52,297 nucleotides of DNA from Gammaproteobacteria bacterium. Its GTDB lineage: Bacteria; Pseudomonadota; Gammaproteobacteria; Pseudomonadales; Azotimanducaceae. The position numbers and the translations under genes are program-made. Under the pieces are notes generated by a model that searched no databases, was not told the DNA's origin, and worked only from the letters and a program-made list of their open reading frames with translations. How positions within the stretch are numbered: the first letter of the stretch is position 1; each line of letters begins with the position of its first letter. Below, piece by piece: positions 11,032 through 52,297 of this stretch. Location: the NCBI GenBank assembly GCA_026706665.1, contig JAPOYI010000240.1, forward strand, positions 1-52,297, written 5' to 3'.

Positions 11032-11346
11032 TCAGTCATCGATCAAGGCACCGCTGGACTTGAAAAACCGGACGCGCTTTCCATCCTCCACGCGAATTCC
11101 CACCCGATCCGCCTTGCTCGTGTCCCGATTGTAGATGGCCACGTTCGATGCCTGGATCGGGGCTTCGCGACTGACGATGCCTCCCTGTTCATTTGTCTGC
11201 GGATTGGCGCGCACGTGTTTCCTGACCATGTTCACGCCGGCAACAAGCAACCTTCCATCGGGCATGACCTGCACCACCTCGCCGACCCTGCCCCTGTCAC
11301 GCCCGGAGATCACGATGACTTCGTCCTCTCTTCTTATCTTTCGCAT
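11032..11346 (-). CDS. rplX: 50S ribosomal protein L24
   Basis: A 104-residue L24, an assembly initiator at the exit tunnel. It begins [19 protein letters not shown] (the KOW motif), continues [21 protein letters not shown], and ends with [15 protein letters not shown]. The length matches E. coli (104). The start ATG overlaps the rplN stop as TGATG, implying coupled translation. Confidence 0.98.
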
Positions 11347-11714
11347 CAGAGCACTTCCGGCGCGAGCGAGACGATGCGCATGAATCTCTCGCTGCGCAGT
11401 TCTCTTGTTACGGGCCCGAAGATGCGGGTCCCGACCGGCTGCAACCCCGCCGTAAGCAGCACCGCGGCATTCTGATCGAACCGGATCACCGAACCGTCCG
11501 AGCGCCTCACCCCCTTTTTGGTACGCACGACCACGGCGTCCATGACCTGGCCCTTGCGAACCCGGCCTCGGGGAATCGCCTCCTTCACCGCGACCTTGAT
11601 GACGTCGCCGATTCCGGCGTAGCGCCTCCGGGAACCGCCGAGCACCTTGATGCACTGCACCCGTCGGGCACCGCTGTTGTCCGCGATGTCGAGCATGGTT
11701 TCCGTCTGGATCAC
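11346..11714 (-). CDS. rplN: 50S ribosomal protein L14
   Basis: A 122-residue L14, located at the subunit interface. It starts [28 protein letters not shown] and ends [13 protein letters not shown], almost identical in layout to E. coli. The start codon is GTG at 11714; the longer open frame upstream overlaps rpsQ and is not L14-like. It is the first gene of the spc block. Confidence 0.97.
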
Positions 11715-11724
11715 GTGGCCGCCC

Positions 11725-12168
11725 TCATGTTCCCGGCGCCTCTTCTCCGGTGCCGATTCTTCTGGTGTCGTTGCCTCGCAGGCGCCACGATTTTCGCTTC
11801 GAAATCGGCCTCGACTCGACAATGGTGACGAAATCTCCGACCTTGCATTCATTGTGCTCATCGTGCGCGTGGATCCTGGACTTGCGCCGGACGATCTTGC
11901 CGTAGACCGGATGCTTCACGCTGCGCTCAACCAGCACCGAGATCGTCTTGTCCATGCGATCGGAGACCACGGTACCGGACAGCGTTCTCGGATTCGTCCG
12001 CCCGGAGGAACGCGCCGGCGCCGCAGCTTCGGGCGCCGGCTCGGCGGGAGCGGACGCGTTGTCTTGTGCGTGCTCGGCACTGTCTTCCCCGGTTTCCGCC
12101 GTTTCCGCCGCCGTTTCCACTTCACCCGTCGTTTCGGACGCTTCGGGCGTTTCCAGTGCCTTAGCCAT
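11725..12168 (-). CDS. rpsQ: 30S ribosomal protein S17, with acidic N-terminal extension
   Basis: The C-terminal 90 residues are a normal S17 ([44 protein letters not shown]...). S17 is usually 80-90 residues; here it is 147. A first segment of about 57 residues is Ala/Glu/Thr-rich and acidic (for example [20 protein letters not shown]), probably disordered. The ATG at 12168 lies within the end of rpmC (8-nt overlap), which supports coupled translation and argues the extension is real. A shorter start nearer RTLSGTV would need a non-ATG codon. Confidence 0.95.
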
Positions 12169-12352
12169 CGGCCTTCTCCCGCATTACCGTTTCCACGCGC
12201 GCGATGTCCTGGCGCGTTTCCCGCAGCAGGTGCGTTTGCGGCAATTGAGAACTGCCGCGCAGCATGCGCAGGTTGAACTGCTCGCGCAGGAGCCGCAGGC
12301 GTTCGGCGCGCAACTCCTCGGTGGTCATATCTCTCAATTCGCTCGCTTTCAT
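12161..12352 (-). CDS. rpmC: 50S ribosomal protein L29
   Basis: A 63-residue two-helix L29 near the exit tunnel, part of the docking site for SRP and trigger factor. It starts [37 protein letters not shown] and contains the usual [16 protein letters not shown] end. The length is identical to E. coli. Its TAA stop overlaps the rpsQ start by 8 nt. Confidence 0.97.
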
Positions 12353-12403
12353 GACTGTTTCACTTCGCTCTCAGCCGCACTATCAGCCGCATTATCTGCC
12401 GCA

Positions 12404-12817
12404 TTAAAGGGCCGACCGCCTGACCACGGCGGTCTTGAACGGCAGCTTCGCCGCGGCCAGTGCAAAGGCCCGCTTCGCGACCTCCTCAGAAACACCTTCC
12501 ATCTCGTAGAGCACGCGTCCCGGCTGAATCTGCGCAACCCAGTATTCCACCGCGCCCTTGCCCTTGCCCTGGCGCACTTCCAGCGGCTTCTTGGTGATCG
12601 GTTTGTCGGGAAACACGCGTATCCACACCTTTCCGCCCCGCCGGACATGCCGCGTCATGGCTCGCCGGGCAGACTCGATCTGACGTGCGGTCAGCCTGCC
12701 GCGCCCCACGGCCTTCAGGCCGAACTCGCCGAAGCTGACCTTGTTGCCACGCTGCGCCAGACCGCGGTTGCGGCCCTTTTGCTGCTTCCTGTACCTGGTT
12801 CTACTCGGCTGTAACAT
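12404..12817 (-). CDS. rplP: 50S ribosomal protein L16
   Basis: A 137-residue L16 near the A-site tRNA elbow. Diagnostic segments are [79 protein letters not shown] and the C-terminal [14 protein letters not shown] start at 12817. It is separated from rpsC by 62 bp and from rpmC by 51 bp, slightly looser packing than elsewhere in the operon. Confidence 0.98.
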
Positions 12818-12879
12818 CGTTTTCGTTCATCGTTGCGGCGCCGCCGCCTGTTCCTGCTCTTCAGGACTCGTCCAGGCTT

Positions 12880-13539
12880 CTACAGAGCTTCTGCATCCTC
12901 CAGAGCTTCCCCGGCGATCACTTCGCCCTTGAAGATCCAGACCTTGATGCCAATGATCCCGTAGGTGGTCCTGGCTTCCGCAGTCGCATAGTCAATGTCG
13001 GCCCGCAGCGTGTGCAATGGCACTCGACCTTCGTGATACACCTCCGCGCGCGCGATTTCGGCACCGTTCAAACGACCCGCCACGCGCACCTTGATGCCCT
13101 TTGCTCCCAGCCGCATGGCGTTCTGGATCACCCGACGCATGGCGCGGCGATACTGCACGCGACGCTCGAGCTGCTGTGCCACGTTCTGGGCGACGAGATA
13201 CGCATCCGTCTCCGGTTTGCGTACTTCCTCCACGTTGACGTGCACCGGCACGCCCATGATTTTCGTCAGTTCGAACCGCAACCGCTCGACGTCCTCGCCT
13301 TTCTTGCCGATCACGATGCCCGGGCGCGCGGTGTGAATCGTCACCCGGGCCGTCTGCGCCGGACGCTCTATGTCGATCCGGCTCACCGAAGCCTGCGCCA
13401 GGCGTTTACCGAGGTACTCCCGAACCTCCAGGTCGTTAAGCAGGTATTCGGCGTACGTTTCCTTCTCTGCATACCAGACGGAACGGTGCTCGGCGACGAT
13501 GCCGAGTCTCAAGCCTGTTGGACTAACCTTCTGACCCAT
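12880..13539 (-). CDS. rpsC: 30S ribosomal protein S3
   Basis: A 219-residue S3 lining the mRNA entry tunnel. It starts [15 protein letters not shown], contains the KH-domain signature [16 protein letters not shown] and continues [52 protein letters not shown]. The length is normal for gammaproteobacteria. ATG start at 13539, 17 bp after rplV. Confidence 0.98.
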
Positions 13540-13556
13540 CTTGTCTCCCGATCGAA

Positions 13557-13895
13557 CTATTGCTCGTCGTCCGTCACCGCAATCGTGACGTGACTGGTGC
13601 GCTTCAGGATGCGATTGCCGCGGCCCCGCGCCCGGGGCCGCATCCTTTTCATGGTCAGGCCTTCATCCACCCGGATTTCTCCGACCTTCAGTTCATCGAC
13701 ATCCGCCCCCTCGTTGTGCTCGGCGTTCGCGATCGCAGATTCCAGCACCTTGGAAACCAGCCCCGCCGCCTTTTGCGGGCTGAACGCCAGGATGTCCAGC
13801 GCGCTTTCGACCGGCTCGCCCCGCACCAGGTCCGCGATCACGCGAACTTTCTGCGGCGATATGCGCAACGCCCTGGCCTGTGCAACGACCCGCAT
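13557..13895 (-). CDS. rplV: 50S ribosomal protein L22
   Basis: A 112-residue L22 whose beta-hairpin lines the peptide exit tunnel. Signatures are [43 protein letters not shown] and the hairpin [24 protein letters not shown]. The length matches E. coli (110). ATG start at 13895, 2 bp after the rpsS stop. Confidence 0.98.
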
Positions 13896-13897
13896 GA

Positions 13898-14173
13898 CTA
13901 TCGCCTTGCCCGGCGGTCACCCGCGTGACCGCGAAACGTCCGGGTCGGCGCGAACTCGCCGAGCTTGTGGCCGACCATGTCGTCGGTAATGAACACGGGG
14001 ACATGCTGCCGGCCGTTGTGCACGGCGATGGTCAACCCCACCATTTCGGGGGAAATCATCGATCGACGAGACCACGTGCGAATGGCGCGCTTGTCCCCGC
14101 TCTGTTGCGCGGAAGCCACCTTCTTCGCCAGGTGCAGATCCACGAACGGTCCCTTGCGTAGTGATCTCGGCAT
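13898..14173 (-). CDS. rpsS: 30S ribosomal protein S19
   Basis: A 91-residue S19, a head protein in contact with S13. It begins [19 protein letters not shown] and contains [55 protein letters not shown], both family hallmarks. The length is normal. ATG start at 14173. The 52-bp gap before it is rich in CTACC/AGGTAG-like short repeats and holds no gene. Confidence 0.98.
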
Positions 14174-46819: not shown

Positions 46820-49800
46820 TCAGGACTCTTCGAACGAATGGGTGTCGATCCTCAGACTCGCGCTGTTCTCCGTCACGATCCGCTCCACCCGCTCGGGCAC
46901 TCCGTCGGGCACGCTGACTTCGATCTCGAGCGTGACCTTCACGTCCGAGCCCACCAGCGCGTCCAGATGCGACACGACCTCTTCCGCGATTCGACCCGCC
47001 TCCGGGCCGATTCGGGTATGGCTTAGCGTTGCGGTCGCGTGGAACCGCCTGGCCAGGGGCCTCCCGGGGACCGTTGGCTTCACCGGGAGATCCGGCTCGG
47101 GTGGCACGGGTGCGGGCCCCGGCTCGCCCGTATCATCCCGCACTTCAGCGTCGATCTGCCTGCGCGCCACCGCTGGCCGGACCAACAGGCCCCGACTGTC
47201 CGCGGCAACGGCGATGTCGCGCATGAAACGCAGTCCCCGGTAGCGCTTGCCGTCCTCGTCGAAGTCGTCCGCGAACGCGAACGCGTCGTGCTCCCAGGTC
47301 AACAGCCCCACCCCATCCCGGACCGCGCGGGACAGCACTTCGCCGCTCGTCAGCCTCGGCAGATACAGGTACTGCGCGAAGTCCTCGACCAATTGCCGGA
47401 CCGGGACATGGTCGCCGCGCCAAAGCGGCACCGTGTCCAGATGCAGGCGCAGCACGGTGGGACCGAGCTCCCCCACCAGCAGTTCCTCGCCAACAAGCCG
47501 CCTGCCGGCCCGGGCCGCGAGCGGACCCGACGCGGACAGGCTCAGCGATTTCCAGGACATCTCGGCATCCGGCGACTGCTGCTCGGGAACGAGCAGCCAT
47601 CTGTACGTCTCGGGGATCCGCGCTCGGACGGTTGCGTCCGCGGCTTCCTGTTGGGCGCGGGCCTGTCCGGCCTGGTGAGGATCGAGGTTGAGCCGCTCGA
47701 CGTCATTGATGATCGACTTCCAGGCAAGGAAACGCCGCAGCGCCTCGTCGAGTTCCTGGAATCGGGTCCGGTCGGCCGCGAGGAACACCAGCGCGTTGCG
47801 GAACAGCCTCGGCGCCGCGCCGCGCGACTCCAGCACCCTTGCCGCCAGGGCCTGCGCCGGGTTGTCGGCCCCGCGCGCGTAGTGCGTATCCGGCGGCAGC
47901 ACCACGAGCCGCGCGTCCCTTTCATCCGCCACGTCCGCCGGCGATTTCGCGAACGTGTGAATGCGCGCGAACGCGCCCCGTTCGCGAAGGTCGTCCCGCA
48001 AGCGGCTCTCCAGTTCGGATGCCACGGCGTCCGCGTCGCGACGGAGTTCCTCCGCCCGGTCCTCCGCCAGCTTGGCCACGGTCGGCTGCGTGTCGTACCA
48101 GTACCGCGTGCCGTCCTGGTAGAGATACGTGGCCCGAACCGCGAGGCGGCGAAGTCCGTCGCCAAAGACCGCAGGCACCTCCGTCGGCATAACGCAACCG
48201 AGCTTGATCCGCGTGTCCTCGATCCCGCGCCTCGCCGCCTCCGCGATCGGCGCCGAGCCCAGGTAGATCGTGCGTGCGACCCTTTGCGTGGCGCGGAGTT
48301 TGCCGAGATTGGGGGCGTCGCCATCGATCGCGACCGGCAGCGAGTTGAGGCCGTCGACATCTTTTCCGATCACGGGCGTCCAGTTGTCGGAGAGGTACCG
48401 GGTGAGTTCGTTCTGCACGCGCGGATTGTCCAGATGGACATTCCAGGGCTGTATCACGGGGCTGCGGTCGCCGGCTTCCCACAGGCTGTGGATCACCGCC
48501 GCCATCAGGCGCAGCACGCCGCGCGTGCGCTGGAACCTCGCAAGGGACGACCAGTCCGTATACAGCCGGTCGAAAACCTCCGGATGGATCGGATAGGACG
48601 CCTGGATGCGGCGCTCGTAGTCCAGCGACGCGCAGACCGCCGGAAACTCCGCGGCGTGCGTCCGGTAGAGATCGAAGAACGCCCGCGCGGTCACGTCCCT
48701 CTGCTTGAACGCTTCCTCGTCGGCCAGCGGCTTGAACAGCCGTCGCCTGACGATCTCGAAACCTTCCTCGGCGGTCGCCGGTCGCCAGGGCGACTCGACC
48801 CGGGCTATCACGTTGCGCAGTCGCTCGAGGGCGTCGCGGCCGCGTACCCCTCCCACCTCGGTGTCGTCAACATCTGCGCTCGCCCCGGCGCCCTGGTCCG
48901 ATGCCGGCAGCGACACCATCACCAGGCAATTCCCGGTCAGCTTCACCGCCTCGGTCAGCGCCTGCGCGAAAGTGAACTGCGTCTCGAACGTACCGCCCGG
49001 CAGACCCGGTTCATCGTGAAGCTGGCGGGCGTACGCTACCCATTCGTCGATCAATATCGCGCACGGTCCGTAGTCGTTCAGCAGATCGAGCAGCTTGTGT
49101 CCGGGATTGGTCGCGTGTTCGTCGTCGACGCGCACCCGCTCGTAGGCCTCCCGGCCGCCGAGCTGGTAGGCCAGCTCTCCCCAGAGCGTTCGCGCAACCG
49201 TTCCATCGGCCTTCGGCGCCGGATCGCCAGGCGATACCTGGGTACCGACCAGCACCACTCGCCGCACGGGTTCAACCTGGCTGACGCCCGCTTCTTCGAG
49301 CACCGCCTCCAATCCCGACACGGTCTTGACGTCGATGCCCGATAGCAGGTGGTATAGCGCCAGCATGGAGTGCGTCTTGCCGCCGCCGAAATTGGTCTGA
49401 AGCTGGATGACGGGGTCTCCATCCCCGCCCGAAAGACGCCGAATCGACCCCACCAACAAAGACTTGAGACTCGCCGTCAGGTACGTCCGCCGGAAGAACT
49501 CGACCGGGTCGCGGTACTCGTCAACGCCCTGGCCCCGATGCACCTGGCCCAGGTCGGCGGCGAATTCCGCCTGCTGGTAGCGACCGGTGGCGACGTCGTC
49601 ATGGGGCTCGATGACATCGCGCCACGCCTTGACGCCCGAGGTCGCCAGGGCATCCATCTGGCGGGAGGTCACGCGCCGGGTCTCGCCGCGCACCTGCTCG
49701 TCGAACACGAGGCGGCGAAGGTCCATCTTCATGCGCCCGACTTCGGCCGCCTGCGGCGCCGAAACCGCAGCCAGCAGGCGCTCCGCCGAGTCGAGGGCGC

Positions 49801-50125
49801 GGTCCGTGTCGTCGCTCGAAATACGCTCCTGGTGCGCCCACCTGTTGCGCCACTCGCGCAATTCCGATACCAGGCTGCGGCCGCTGTGCCCCAGGGTGTC
49901 CTGAAACACCTCGCGCCAGACGTCTGTCATGAGCCGCAGAAGCCCGGACACGTCCCACTGTTCTACCGGCCTGTCCGCGAGGCGCGGATCGTCCGCATAG
50001 CGCCGGATGCGTTCGATCGGCACCTGTCTCGACCGCGCCCTTATCTCGCGCTCCACGAACGGAGCGATTCCGCTGCGCAGCAACTCCAGCGCCTTGCCGA
50101 CGCGTTCGTGGTTGGTCGTAGCCAT
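46820..50125 (-). CDS. Swt1-type HEPN / DUF499 ATPase (candidate defence protein)
   Basis: A 1101-residue protein. Residues 1 to about 130 form a Swt1-like HEPN domain with an Rx4H element (Arg93...His98 in EWRNRWAHQE), the pattern of HEPN ribonucleases. A DUF499 P-loop region follows: Walker A NFGGGKTHS (245-253) and Walker B CAILIDEWVAY (355-365). A long C-terminal part ends GSDVKVTLEIEVSVPDGVPERVER. DUF499 proteins recur beside DUF1156 methylase-type proteins in candidate antiphage clusters. Here DUF1156 lies divergently at 52017, with two recombinases between. The ATG at 50125 has GGAG nearby. Only 85 bp separate it from the first recombinase. The HEPN-nuclease activity and the defence role are inferred. 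Confidence 0.85.
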   Translation of the reverse strand: MATTNHERVGKALELLRSGIAPFVEREIRARSRQVPIERIRRYADDPRLADRPVEQWDVSGLLRLMTDVWREVFQDTLGHSGRSLVSELREWRNRWAHQERISSDDTDRALDSAERLLAAVSAPQAAEVGRMKMDLRRLVFDEQVRGETRRVTSRQMDALATSGVKAWRDVIEPHDDVATGRYQQAEFAADLGQVHRGQGVDEYRDPVEFFRRTYLTASLKSLLVGSIRRLSGGDGDPVIQLQTNFGGGKTHSMLALYHLLSGIDVKTVSGLEAVLEEAGVSQVEPVRRVVLVGTQVSPGDPAPKADGTVARTLWGELAYQLGGREAYERVRVDDEHATNPGHKLLDLLNDYGPCAILIDEWVAYARQLHDEPGLPGGTFETQFTFAQALTEAVKLTGNCLVMVSLPASDQGAGASADVDDTEVGGVRGRDALERLRNVIARVESPWRPATAEEGFEIVRRRLFKPLADEEAFKQRDVTARAFFDLYRTHAAEFPAVCASLDYERRIQASYPIHPEVFDRLYTDWSSLARFQRTRGVLRLMAAVIHSLWEAGDRSPVIQPWNVHLDNPRVQNELTRYLSDNWTPVIGKDVDGLNSLPVAIDGDAPNLGKLRATQRVARTIYLGSAPIAEAARRGIEDTRIKLGCVMPTEVPAVFGDGLRRLAVRATYLYQDGTRYWYDTQPTVAKLAEDRAEELRRDADAVASELESRLRDDLRERGAFARIHTFAKSPADVADERDARLVVLPPDTHYARGADNPAQALAARVLESRGAAPRLFRNALVFLAADRTRFQELDEALRRFLAWKSIINDVERLNLDPHQAGQARAQQEAADATVRARIPETYRWLLVPEQQSPDAEMSWKSLSLSASGPLAARAGRRLVGEELLVGELGPTVLRLHLDTVPLWRGDHVPVRQLVEDFAQYLYLPRLTSGEVLSRAVRDGVGLLTWEHDAFAFADDFDEDGKRYRGLRFMRDIAVAADSRGLLVRPAVARRQIDAEVRDDTGEPGPAPVPPEPDLPVKPTVPGRPLARRFHATATLSHTRIGPEAGRIAEEVVSHLDALVGSDVKVTLEIEVSVPDGVPERVERIVTENSASLRIDTHSFEES

Positions 50126-50148
50126 AGATTCTCCTTGCAGCTCCGCCT

Positions 50149-50166
50149 CGGTCCCGGAGCGGACCG
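50149..50166. promoter_or_regulatory. inverted repeat in the divergent DUF499-recombinase promoter gap
   Basis: CGGTCC (50149-50154) and GGACCG (50161-50166) flank six bases in the 85-bp gap that must contain both divergent promoters. A GCTCCG/CGGAGC pair overlaps it. It could be an operator or a recombinase-binding core; it is short, so this is tentative. Confidence 0.3.
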
Positions 50167-50210
50167 GAAGAACTCCCGACCTCGCGTTCCGATGCGGATT
50201 CGCTTACATC

Positions 50211-51095
50211 ATGGAGCACGACACCTTGCATGAAAAGCCGCCGACCCTTCTGGGACCCCTCGCCGATTCCGTCATCCGCAGCCATTCGCGCCTCTGGAAG
50301 CCTCGCACACTAGCGGTCAACCGCTGCTATCTGCGCAATCAGATCCTGCCGTTCTTCGCCCGCCGGCCGGTGGCCGACGTCTCTCGTGGCGAGGTCCGCC
50401 GGTGGTTCGCCGGGCTGCGCGCCACGCCAGCGGCGGCCAACCGAGCCCTGCCCGTTCTCTCGACCGTCTTCCGCGAGGCGGAGCGCCTGGGGTTTCGTCC
50501 CGAAAACAGCAACCCCTGCGCGGGCATACGGCGGTATCGCACGCCGGGACGCAGCCGTTTCCTGACTCCCGCAGAAATACGTCGGATCGGCGCGGTGCTG
50601 GCCGAACGCGAACGCGATGCGCCCGATACAGTCGCGCTCGTTCGCCTTCTCATCCTCACCGGCTGCCGTCAGGGAGAGATCCGACACCTGCGCTGGCACG
50701 ACTACCGCGAAGGCAACCTGTACCTTCCCGACAGCAAGACCGGGCCGCGAACGGTGTGGCTTTCGGGTGCGAGCCGGCGTGTTCTGGCAGGTCTCGGCAG
50801 GAGGTCCGCCTGGGTCTTTCCCGCCCGGCGGAGCGACGGCCCCATGCGCACCGAGACCCTCTACCGGCGCTGGCGCGGCATTTGCCAGGCCGCCGACCTG
50901 CAGGACATGCGCCTTCACGACCTTCGGCACACTTACGCGAGCTTCGCGCTGAGCCGGGGCGAGACCGTGCCGACCATCGGCCGCCTTCTCGGGCATCGCG
51001 ACGCCGCGACCACGCTGCGCTATCTGCATTTCGACGATACCCGCGCGATGTTGGCGGTGCAGACCGTCGCCGCCGCCATGGCGCATGGGCCATGA
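50211..51095 (+). CDS. tyrosine recombinase/integrase 1
   Basis: A 294-residue site-specific recombinase with a short SAM-like N-terminal DNA-binding domain (WKPRTLAVNRCYLRNQILPFF; residues about 15-95). The complete catalytic domain has Arg153 (GCRQGEIRHLRW), Lys177 (DSKTGPR), His236 and Arg239 (LHDLRHTYAS), His262 (LLGHRD) and the nucleophile Tyr271 (TLRYLHF). All active-site residues are present. The ATG at 50211 is chosen because the N-terminal domain starts there. Its stop overlaps the start of a second recombinase (ATGA), and the DUF1156 gene follows that, so all three read as one operon divergent from DUF499. Confidence 0.92.
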   Translation: MEHDTLHEKPPTLLGPLADSVIRSHSRLWKPRTLAVNRCYLRNQILPFFARRPVADVSRGEVRRWFAGLRATPAAANRALPVLSTVFREAERLGFRPENSNPCAGIRRYRTPGRSRFLTPAEIRRIGAVLAERERDAPDTVALVRLLILTGCRQGEIRHLRWHDYREGNLYLPDSKTGPRTVWLSGASRRVLAGLGRRSAWVFPARRSDGPMRTETLYRRWRGICQAADLQDMRLHDLRHTYASFALSRGETVPTIGRLLGHRDAATTLRYLHFDDTRAMLAVQTVAAAMAHGP

Positions 51096-52030
51096 CGACG
51101 TTCGCCGATTTCGTGGCCTCCCCCTGGACGCCCGCATGCCATGAACCATGCAAGCCTTCCACCAGGCGCCGGGTCGAGAGTCTGCTGCGGACGCAACTGC
51201 TGCCCGAGTTCGGCGCGATGTGCCTTGCCCGGCTCGGCCACGAGAACATCCGCATATGGTTCGACCGCTACTCCAGGGTCGCGCCAGCCGGCGCGAATCG
51301 GGCCCTGGATGTGCTTTCGCAGATCCTGAATTTCGCCATCGAGTGCGGCCAACTGACTTCGAATCCCGCGCGCGCCATCCGACGCAACCCGCAATTCAGG
51401 AAGACGCGTTTCCTGACGCGCACCGAAATCGAGCGTCTCCACCGGGCCCTGGACGACCATCGCGGGCGCGGCTCCGGCGTTCAGCAGGCCGACATCATCC
51501 GCCTGCTCCTGCTGACCGGGTGCCGCAAGGGCGAATTGATCAACCTGCGCTGGGCGGAGGTCGGCGACGACAGGCTGGTCCTGACCGACTCCAAGACCGG
51601 CCCCCGAGCGGTCTTTCTCAGCGCCGCCGCCAAGGCGATCCTCGACAGGCAACCCCGCATCGGCGAGTACGTATTTCCGTCCTCGGCAGACCCTTCGACG
51701 TGCCGGTCGCCGGAACTCTCGCTCTGGCGAAAGGTCCGTCACGCCGCCAGCATCGACGACGTCCGTCTCCACGACCTGCGCCACACCTTCGCCAGTCACG
51801 CGGTCATGGCCGGCGTTCCCCTGCCCGTGGTGTCGCGGCTGCTGGGTCACTCGCAGATGCGCATGACGCTCCGGTATGCCCATGTGAGCGACAGGGAGAC
51901 GGAAGCCGCCGCCGAACGCATCGGATCGGCCATGTCCGCCACCCTGGCCGGCGCAGTACCGGCCCCTATGGTTGACGCGAATCGACCCTTCGCGGAGACT
52001 TCGCATTCGGAGGCGCATGGATTCCCCTGA
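51092..52030 (+). CDS. tyrosine recombinase/integrase 2
   Basis: A 312-residue paralogue of the preceding recombinase. N-terminal DNA-binding segment: [18 protein letters not shown]. Catalytic residues: Arg145 ([12 protein letters not shown]), Lys168 (DSKTGPRAV), His227 and Arg230 ([10 protein letters not shown]), His253 (LLGHSQ) and Tyr262 (TLRYAHV). The ATG at 51092 overlaps the previous stop by 4 nt. Its own 3' end overlaps the DUF1156 start by 14 nt, so translation of the methylase is probably tied to it. A pair of different recombinases with matching N-termini suggests a heteromeric enzyme acting on asymmetric sites, like XerCD. That is inference. Confidence 0.92.
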
Positions 52031-52297
52031 GTCTTCATGGCCGTTCCATCGTGAGGGACTATTGCGCAGGAAACTGATTGAAGTCGCGCTGCCGCTCGAC
52101 GAGATCAATGCGGCCGGCGCGCGCGAGAAGTCGATCCGTCACGGGCACCCGTCCACTCTTCATCTATGGTGGTCCCGTAAGCCTTTGGCGGTTGCCCGGG
52201 CGGTGATTTTCGGCCAGTTGGTGGACGATCCGTCGTCGGTTCCGGAGGAGTTTCCGACGCCGGAGGATCAAGCCGTCGAGCGCGAGCGCCTGTTCGA
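52017..52297 (+). CDS. DUF1156 (adenine-specific methylase-type) protein, partial, cut by window end
   Basis: Only the first 93 residues are in the window, starting [16 protein letters not shown] at the ATG at 52017 with GGAGG just upstream. The segment [20 protein letters not shown], followed by [23 protein letters not shown] and [10 protein letters not shown], is the signature N-terminus of DUF1156 proteins. These are very large N6-adenine methylase-like proteins that partner with DUF499 ATPases. The catalytic DPPY-type motif lies beyond the window and is not seen. The gene overlaps recombinase 2 by 14 nt. Confidence 0.88.

Follow-up and report, generated by a model that had tools for sequence, protein, structure and literature searches.

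Gene content and assignment to Hma

The window, by which we mean the whole 52,297-nucleotide stretch analysed here, is the entire contig C190 (JAPOYI010000240.1) of a draft gammaproteobacterial genome of 5.0 Mb in 252 contigs. Its right end carries part of what we predict, from the three genes hmaA, hmaB and hmaC, to be an Hma (helicase-methylase-ATPase) anti-phage system, with two tyrosine recombinase genes, rec1 and rec2, lying between hmaC and the start of an hmaB gene. The layout given in the initial annotation, namely a 1101-residue DUF499 protein, an 85-bp divergent gap, two recombinases and a DUF1156 gene with overlaps of 4 and 14 nt, proved exact by open reading frame coordinates and Pfam. 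The features are listed below; L149 and L152 are loci from other genomes that are taken up in the next section.

46820..50125, minus strand: hmaC, DUF499 ATPase with N-terminal Swt1-like HEPN domain, 1101 residues (Pfam PF18731 and PF04465; PADLOC HmaC)
49760..50095, minus strand: HEPN_Swt1 domain, residues 11-122 of HmaC (Pfam PF18731, E 1.9e-33)
50126..50210, no strand: divergent gap between hmaC and rec1, 85 bp (open reading frame coordinates)
50211..51095, plus strand: rec1, tyrosine recombinase, 294 residues (Pfam Phage_integrase; orthologues in L149 and L152)
51092..52030, plus strand: rec2, tyrosine recombinase, 312 residues (Pfam Phage_integrase; orthologues in L149 and L152)
52017..52297, plus strand: 5′ end of hmaB-B, DUF1156 methylase, 93 codons, stopped by the contig end (Pfam PF06634)
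52243..52297, plus strand: 55-bp contig end that exactly matches, on the reverse strand, the beginning of C233 within the second hmaB start, and borders the putative unassembled shared hmaB core (contig-end comparison)

The DUF499 domain of HmaC is matched at E 3.5e-28 and the DUF1156 domain at the end of the window at E 1.3e-31. The overlap of rec1 with rec2 consists of 4 nt (ATGA), and that of rec2 with the DUF1156 gene, which starts at 52017, of 14 nt. The two recombinases (Phage_integrase matches of E 1.7e-19 and 3.2e-24) are 41% identical to each other, and both possess the R, K, H, R, H, Y set that we take to be catalytic in this family (R153 K176 H236 R239 H262 Y271 in Rec1; R145 K168 H227 R230 H253 Y262 in Rec2); these positions are invariant when each recombinase is aligned with its two outside orthologues (three rows per alignment). 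Because the window is the whole of C190, it is the contig end at 52297, 281 bp into DUF1156, that cuts the gene, and not the window.

Hma is the helicase-methylase-ATPase system of PMC8565338, and according to the main text of PMC12839542, where it is named Type-1 BR (a DUF499-centred system related to bacteriophage exclusion, BREX), a HEPN-fused DUF499 is an already described form. With the PADLOC models, the DUF499 protein of the window is HmaC (1060 bits over residues 165-1100), an SNF2 helicase on contig C233 is HmaA (1623 bits; runner-up DrmD, 408 bits), and two DUF1156 halves on contig C225 are HmaB (707 and 445 bits), no whole copy having been assembled in this genome. The locus departs from the usual collinear, single-copy operon, in that hmaC is divergent from rec1-rec2-hmaB-B and there are two hmaB starts; we treated gene order as usual and not defining for membership, which rests on the three genes. 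The helicase gene that the initial annotation proposed to look for to the right of position 52297 is part of the system, but hmaA lies on another contig, tied to the window locus by contig-end evidence and joined via a repeat, not simply rightward. The cluster is not of the DUF3780 type: the system is Hma by the models, and the DUF499 protein scores 167.6 against a cut-off of 1200 with the NCBIfam model of the DUF499-DUF3780-DUF1156 anti-phage cluster, DUF3780 itself not having been searched for. The NCBIfam anti-phage DUF1156 model also remains below its cut-off of 1000 (42.4 for a C225 half, 108.5 for the relative L042), and the C233 helicase scores 354 against a cut-off of 610 with the DISARM_DrmD model of the DISARM defence system (DrmA, DrmB and DrmC were not sought).

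Inverted second copies of hmaB

In the window's genome a PF06634 profile search locates DUF1156 starts at two places, the end of C190 and, directly following hmaA, the start of C233. The terminal 55 bp of these contigs are identical, and the last 227 bp are 85% identical. Searching with the HmaB of a relative gave two hmaB 3′ halves, both on C225 (5,930 bp), one per end and inverted, together with an HmaB-like scrap of 84 residues on C191. One of the 3′ halves follows the family profile to its end, in the other homology is lost beyond residue ~836 of L042, and an AlbA_2/RecG-like gene lies between them. The ends of C225 have another 55 bp exactly in common, with which both 3′ halves begin. Within the bin, a 20-mer of the C190/C233 55-mer is found only at those two contig ends, and a 27-mer of the C225 55-mer, with up to 2 mismatches allowed, only at the ends of C225. 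The common overlap of 55 bp presumably corresponds to k of a SPAdes-type assembler, and the three contigs have similar GC contents (0.64, 0.65 and 0.63). Our reading is that an unassembled hmaB core, about 400 codons (~1.2 kb) by homology, is probably present twice, and the simplest path would be hmaA> hmaB-A> core > C225 > core (inverted) <hmaB-B <rec2 <rec1, followed by hmaC>, that is, two inverted hmaB copies.

It is very improbable that the doubled contig ends reflect two strains in the metagenome-assembled genome (MAG) and not two copies per cell. Strain mixture can yield shared k-mer ends, and this is a draft of 252 contigs, but C225 holds both 3′ halves, inverted, on one contig, and the two-copy arrangement of L149 and L152 is likewise seen on single contigs.

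Outside hmaB loci were surveyed by a contig scan of genomes, from which the best 80 of at least 503 loci were taken; in 55 of these 80 the sequence extends for 4 kb or more to each side, many loci being cut by contig ends. The A-B-C order on one strand is found in 52 of the 80 and parts of it in 25, and three (L149, L152 and L194) are rearranged. Full-length relatives of the class have helicase, DUF1156 and DUF499 on one strand, with extra genes between in some. Orthologues of rec1 and rec2 are present in two of the 80, L149 (Acidobacteria COS3_bin_14) and L152 (Gemmatimonadetes jk18x11bins.40), at 353-399 bits, the next best recombinase-like open reading frame in the 117 loci scanned reaching 57 bits. 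Rec1 of the window is 59-60% and Rec2 64-65% identical to their counterparts there (59-60% and 64-67% among all three loci). Both of these loci carry a second hmaB on the opposite strand, on single contigs, and an inverted second hmaB is found in none of the other 78, so that the recombinases and the inverted copy occur in the same two loci of 80, with a chance probability of 1/3160. Their gene orders, the prime marking the second copy, are:

L152: hmaA(-), hmaB'(-), rec1, rec2, hmaB, hmaC(+)
L149: rec2, rec1, hmaB'(-), hmaB(+), hmaC, hmaA(-)

In G747, a second species of the window's genus, rec1 and the first part of rec2 are divergent from hmaC and the contig ends inside rec2; no hmaB was found in that MAG. 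An HmaC tree of 75 rows places the window's genome together with G747 in a starred group that excludes L149 and L152, and the starred branches force at least 2 changes of recombinase label, which suggests more than one attachment of the recombinases, or transfer of the module. The initial annotation had held the recombinases to be members of the system and not chance neighbours, with switching as one possible role, and this is supported by orthologous pairs beside hmaB, with an inverted second hmaB, in Acidobacteria and Gemmatimonadetes MAGs, and by G747; homologous loci do carry them, if rarely (2/80). Its argument from interlocked start and stop codons is weak, since rec2 and hmaB are 259 nt apart in the Gemmatimonadetes locus.

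Some smaller observations concern these loci and contigs. L174 has only a same-strand scrap, a direct duplication of the first 39 hmaB residues ahead of the full gene (L174:10001-10117 and 11197-14109). Rec2 of the Acidobacteria locus (L149:5575-6777) has a C-terminal extension that, by eye, resembles an XRE-type helix-turn-helix. At ~8022-9951 of L066 (G000:C191:30021-31950) a decayed remnant combines fragments of a helicase and of AlbA_2 with a scrap of the HmaB C-terminus.

The common truncation point and shared block

In C225, L149 and L152 alike, the second hmaB copy is homologous up to the motif LAQAAIGPGMAxYTRY and loses homology within a few codons, so that the incomplete copy ends just past the methyltransferase domain, without the C-terminal domain, the other copy being complete. 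The longest exact run between the copies sits at this truncation point in all three loci: 73 bp in C225 (880-952 and 4994-5066), 59 bp in L149, and 53 bp in L152, followed there by one mismatch and 25 bp more. Third-codon identity at the shared block is 84-96%, compared with about 49% overall. Among 1225 control hmaB pairs compared in the same frame, one reaches 53 bp (58 bp, between two hmaB genes of one Spirochaetia MAG) and the next has 52 bp; the value for L152 is not outstanding by itself, and the three loci together are. Secondary shared blocks exist as well, one at GGTGARAYAEAVAVYL (39 bp in L152, 30 bp in L149, and also at the C225 edge of the core) and another of 53 bp at the 5′ edge of the L149 copy. 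In the predicted HmaB structure the shared block follows the methyltransferase domain and precedes the C-terminal helical domains; residues ~381-560 are poorly conserved. The dN/dS ratios between the copies in the three loci are 0.29, 0.18 and 0.26, and values of about 0.2-0.3 mean that the incomplete copy is not drifting freely; both hmaB copies are under purifying selection. Like the gene content and the inverted copies, the truncation point, the blocks and this selection are seen directly.

Exchange between hmaB genes is also apparent in a Spirochaetia MAG, in which the genes of L134 and L177, on two contigs, match exactly over 742 bp at the 5′ side, are diverged mid-gene (codons ~298-750) and are over 90% identical at third positions in most windows at the 3′ side. 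This pattern supports a candidate modular central cassette, and it bears on the view that homologous recombination or gene conversion between paralogous hmaB genes diversifies the methylase, the recombinases being bystanders such as leftovers of an integrated element: no recombinase is within reach of the Spirochaetia pair, the two copies in the window's genome seem identical over the ~1.2-kb core (contigs break there), which is enough for homologous recombination, and the secondary blocks could be read in the same way. We regard this view as unlikely, because it leaves unexplained why recombinases and inverted second copies occur in exactly the same loci and why the truncation point is common to them.

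Still less probable, in our estimation, is that a mobile element brought the second hmaB into Hma loci and that the recombinases are its integrase, acting in insertion and excision and not in switching. Tandem, overlapping tyrosine recombinase genes 41-43% identical to rec2 do occur on Vibrionaceae and Shewanella plasmids (Aliivibrio, Shewanella and Photobacterium), and pairs of ~400-residue integrases are found elsewhere in relatives and in the window's genome. In contrast to these longer proteins, the Hma-linked recombinases have ~300 residues, being ~100 residues shorter N-terminally in the window's genome and in two of the four outside proteins; no hmaB lies beside the plasmid pairs in three annotated regions viewed; and the second hmaB is without exception inverted and truncated at the same codons.

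A putative methylase switch

We propose, with a probability of roughly 0.6, that Rec1 and Rec2 invert the DNA between the shared blocks and thereby choose which methylase body is joined to the C-terminal domain. Acting perhaps as a XerCD-like pair, they would recombine the short sequence common to both hmaB copies at the truncation point, so that the intervening DNA flips and the other methylase body becomes fused to the constant C-terminal part. In L152 a single inversion would swap two whole methylase bodies upstream of the constant C-terminal part and hmaC; the effect in the window's genome would be to move the C-terminal part and the AlbA_2 gene between copies that differ between L042 residues ~516 and ~836. 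Recombination at the block, its catalysis by Rec1 and Rec2 and a change of specificity are all inferred: judging from the described insert and the low conservation of residues ~381-560, the swapped part, which covers the variable central region, may set the DNA target, in which case the sequence marked as self, and the phages restricted, would likely change.

Several observations weigh against this proposal. No inversion was seen in the contigs of the window's genome, which fit both orientations of C225, and the bin lacks the ~1.2-kb core that would connect C190 and C233 to C225. Coding conservation accounts for part of the identity at the block, as the unrelated control pair L125/L138 has 52 bp identical there, compared with 53 bp in L152, and the three loci have no convincing dyad site in common. 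Because L134 and L177 show the same block pattern with no recombinase in their loci, exchange can arise without a recombinase nearby. Relative to the putative invertible segment, the recombinases are internal in L152 and external in L149 and the window's genome. Among the outside loci, 77 of 80 have neither feature and no rearranged order, and L194 is rearranged yet without recombinases. Lastly, the second copy of L149 also lacks the first ~260 codons, and a single inversion at the block would give no whole gene; either this locus is decaying or more than one block may be used, much as the pneumococcal cod locus has three inverted repeats (PMC7096588).

The arrangement has its closest parallels in inverting type I restriction-modification (R-M) systems with duplicated hsdS, such as the cod locus with its recombinase PsrA, which likewise have an inverted, incomplete second specificity copy, short shared blocks and a nearby tyrosine recombinase (excerpts of PMC7096588 and PMC7394358); duplicated hsdS with inverted repeats is present in about 6% of the type I R-M systems in REBASE (PMC7394358). 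In common with them, an inverted second copy is seen directly in L149 and L152 and by contig-end logic in the window's genome, along with an adjacent site-specific recombinase and short inverted repeats between the copies (73, 53+25 and 59 bp, to be read with the controls above). They differ in that the gene varied here, hmaB, encodes a methylase that has its own recognition domain and belongs to a BREX-related system, and that there are two recombinases, not one. From Hma as so far described, with HmaA, HmaB and HmaC by model and a HEPN-fused DUF499 (PMC12839542, main text), the window locus differs by its two inverted hmaB genes and dedicated recombinase pair, plain A-B-C being the order in 52/80 outside loci; the word recombinase is absent from the main texts of PMC12839542 and PMC8565338. 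Phase-variable pglX of the phage growth limitation (Pgl)/BREX systems is alike in that the methylase of a related defence system varies, and the main text of PMC9122589 mentions neither recombinase nor inversion.

Inversion-based specificity switching, well known for type I R-M (hsdS), is undescribed for Hma/BR within the literature searched. Suggestions of pglX inversion were reportedly made by Goldfarb in 2015. Our search found no paper joining Hma or DUF1156 with inversion, and an earlier report may exist, Goldfarb 2015 and Milman 2023 lying outside it. Because contigs break inside hmaB, such loci are lost from short-read assemblies. In a broader form of the proposal, to which we give even odds, a two-recombinase inversion cassette was attached at least twice to Hma in different phyla, yielding a switchable, modular hmaB in which bodies are swapped onto a constant C-terminal domain and inner blocks shuffle the recognition region, so that the self-mark and the target set change within a clone. 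If switching is real, a widespread BREX-related defence would alter its self/non-self mark through programmed inversion, and a bacterium could change how its own DNA is told from viral DNA.

Contig breaks and integrase pairs of similar kinds were noted elsewhere. The contigs at the ends of L100/L044 (G070) and L099/L039 (G342) break mid-hmaB, the G070 break lying near the GGTGARAYAEAV block, and only one copy was found. Two DUF1156 genes of another subfamily, at the end of L103 (G116:C17) and the start of L104 (G116:C345), both reach the same 55 bp at their contig ends and make up a further collapsed DUF1156 repeat. L097 2489-9799 (G000:C153) carries type III R-M genes resembling Mod-Res, together with two ~400-residue integrases that are related to rec1 and rec2 and form a convergent tandem pair.

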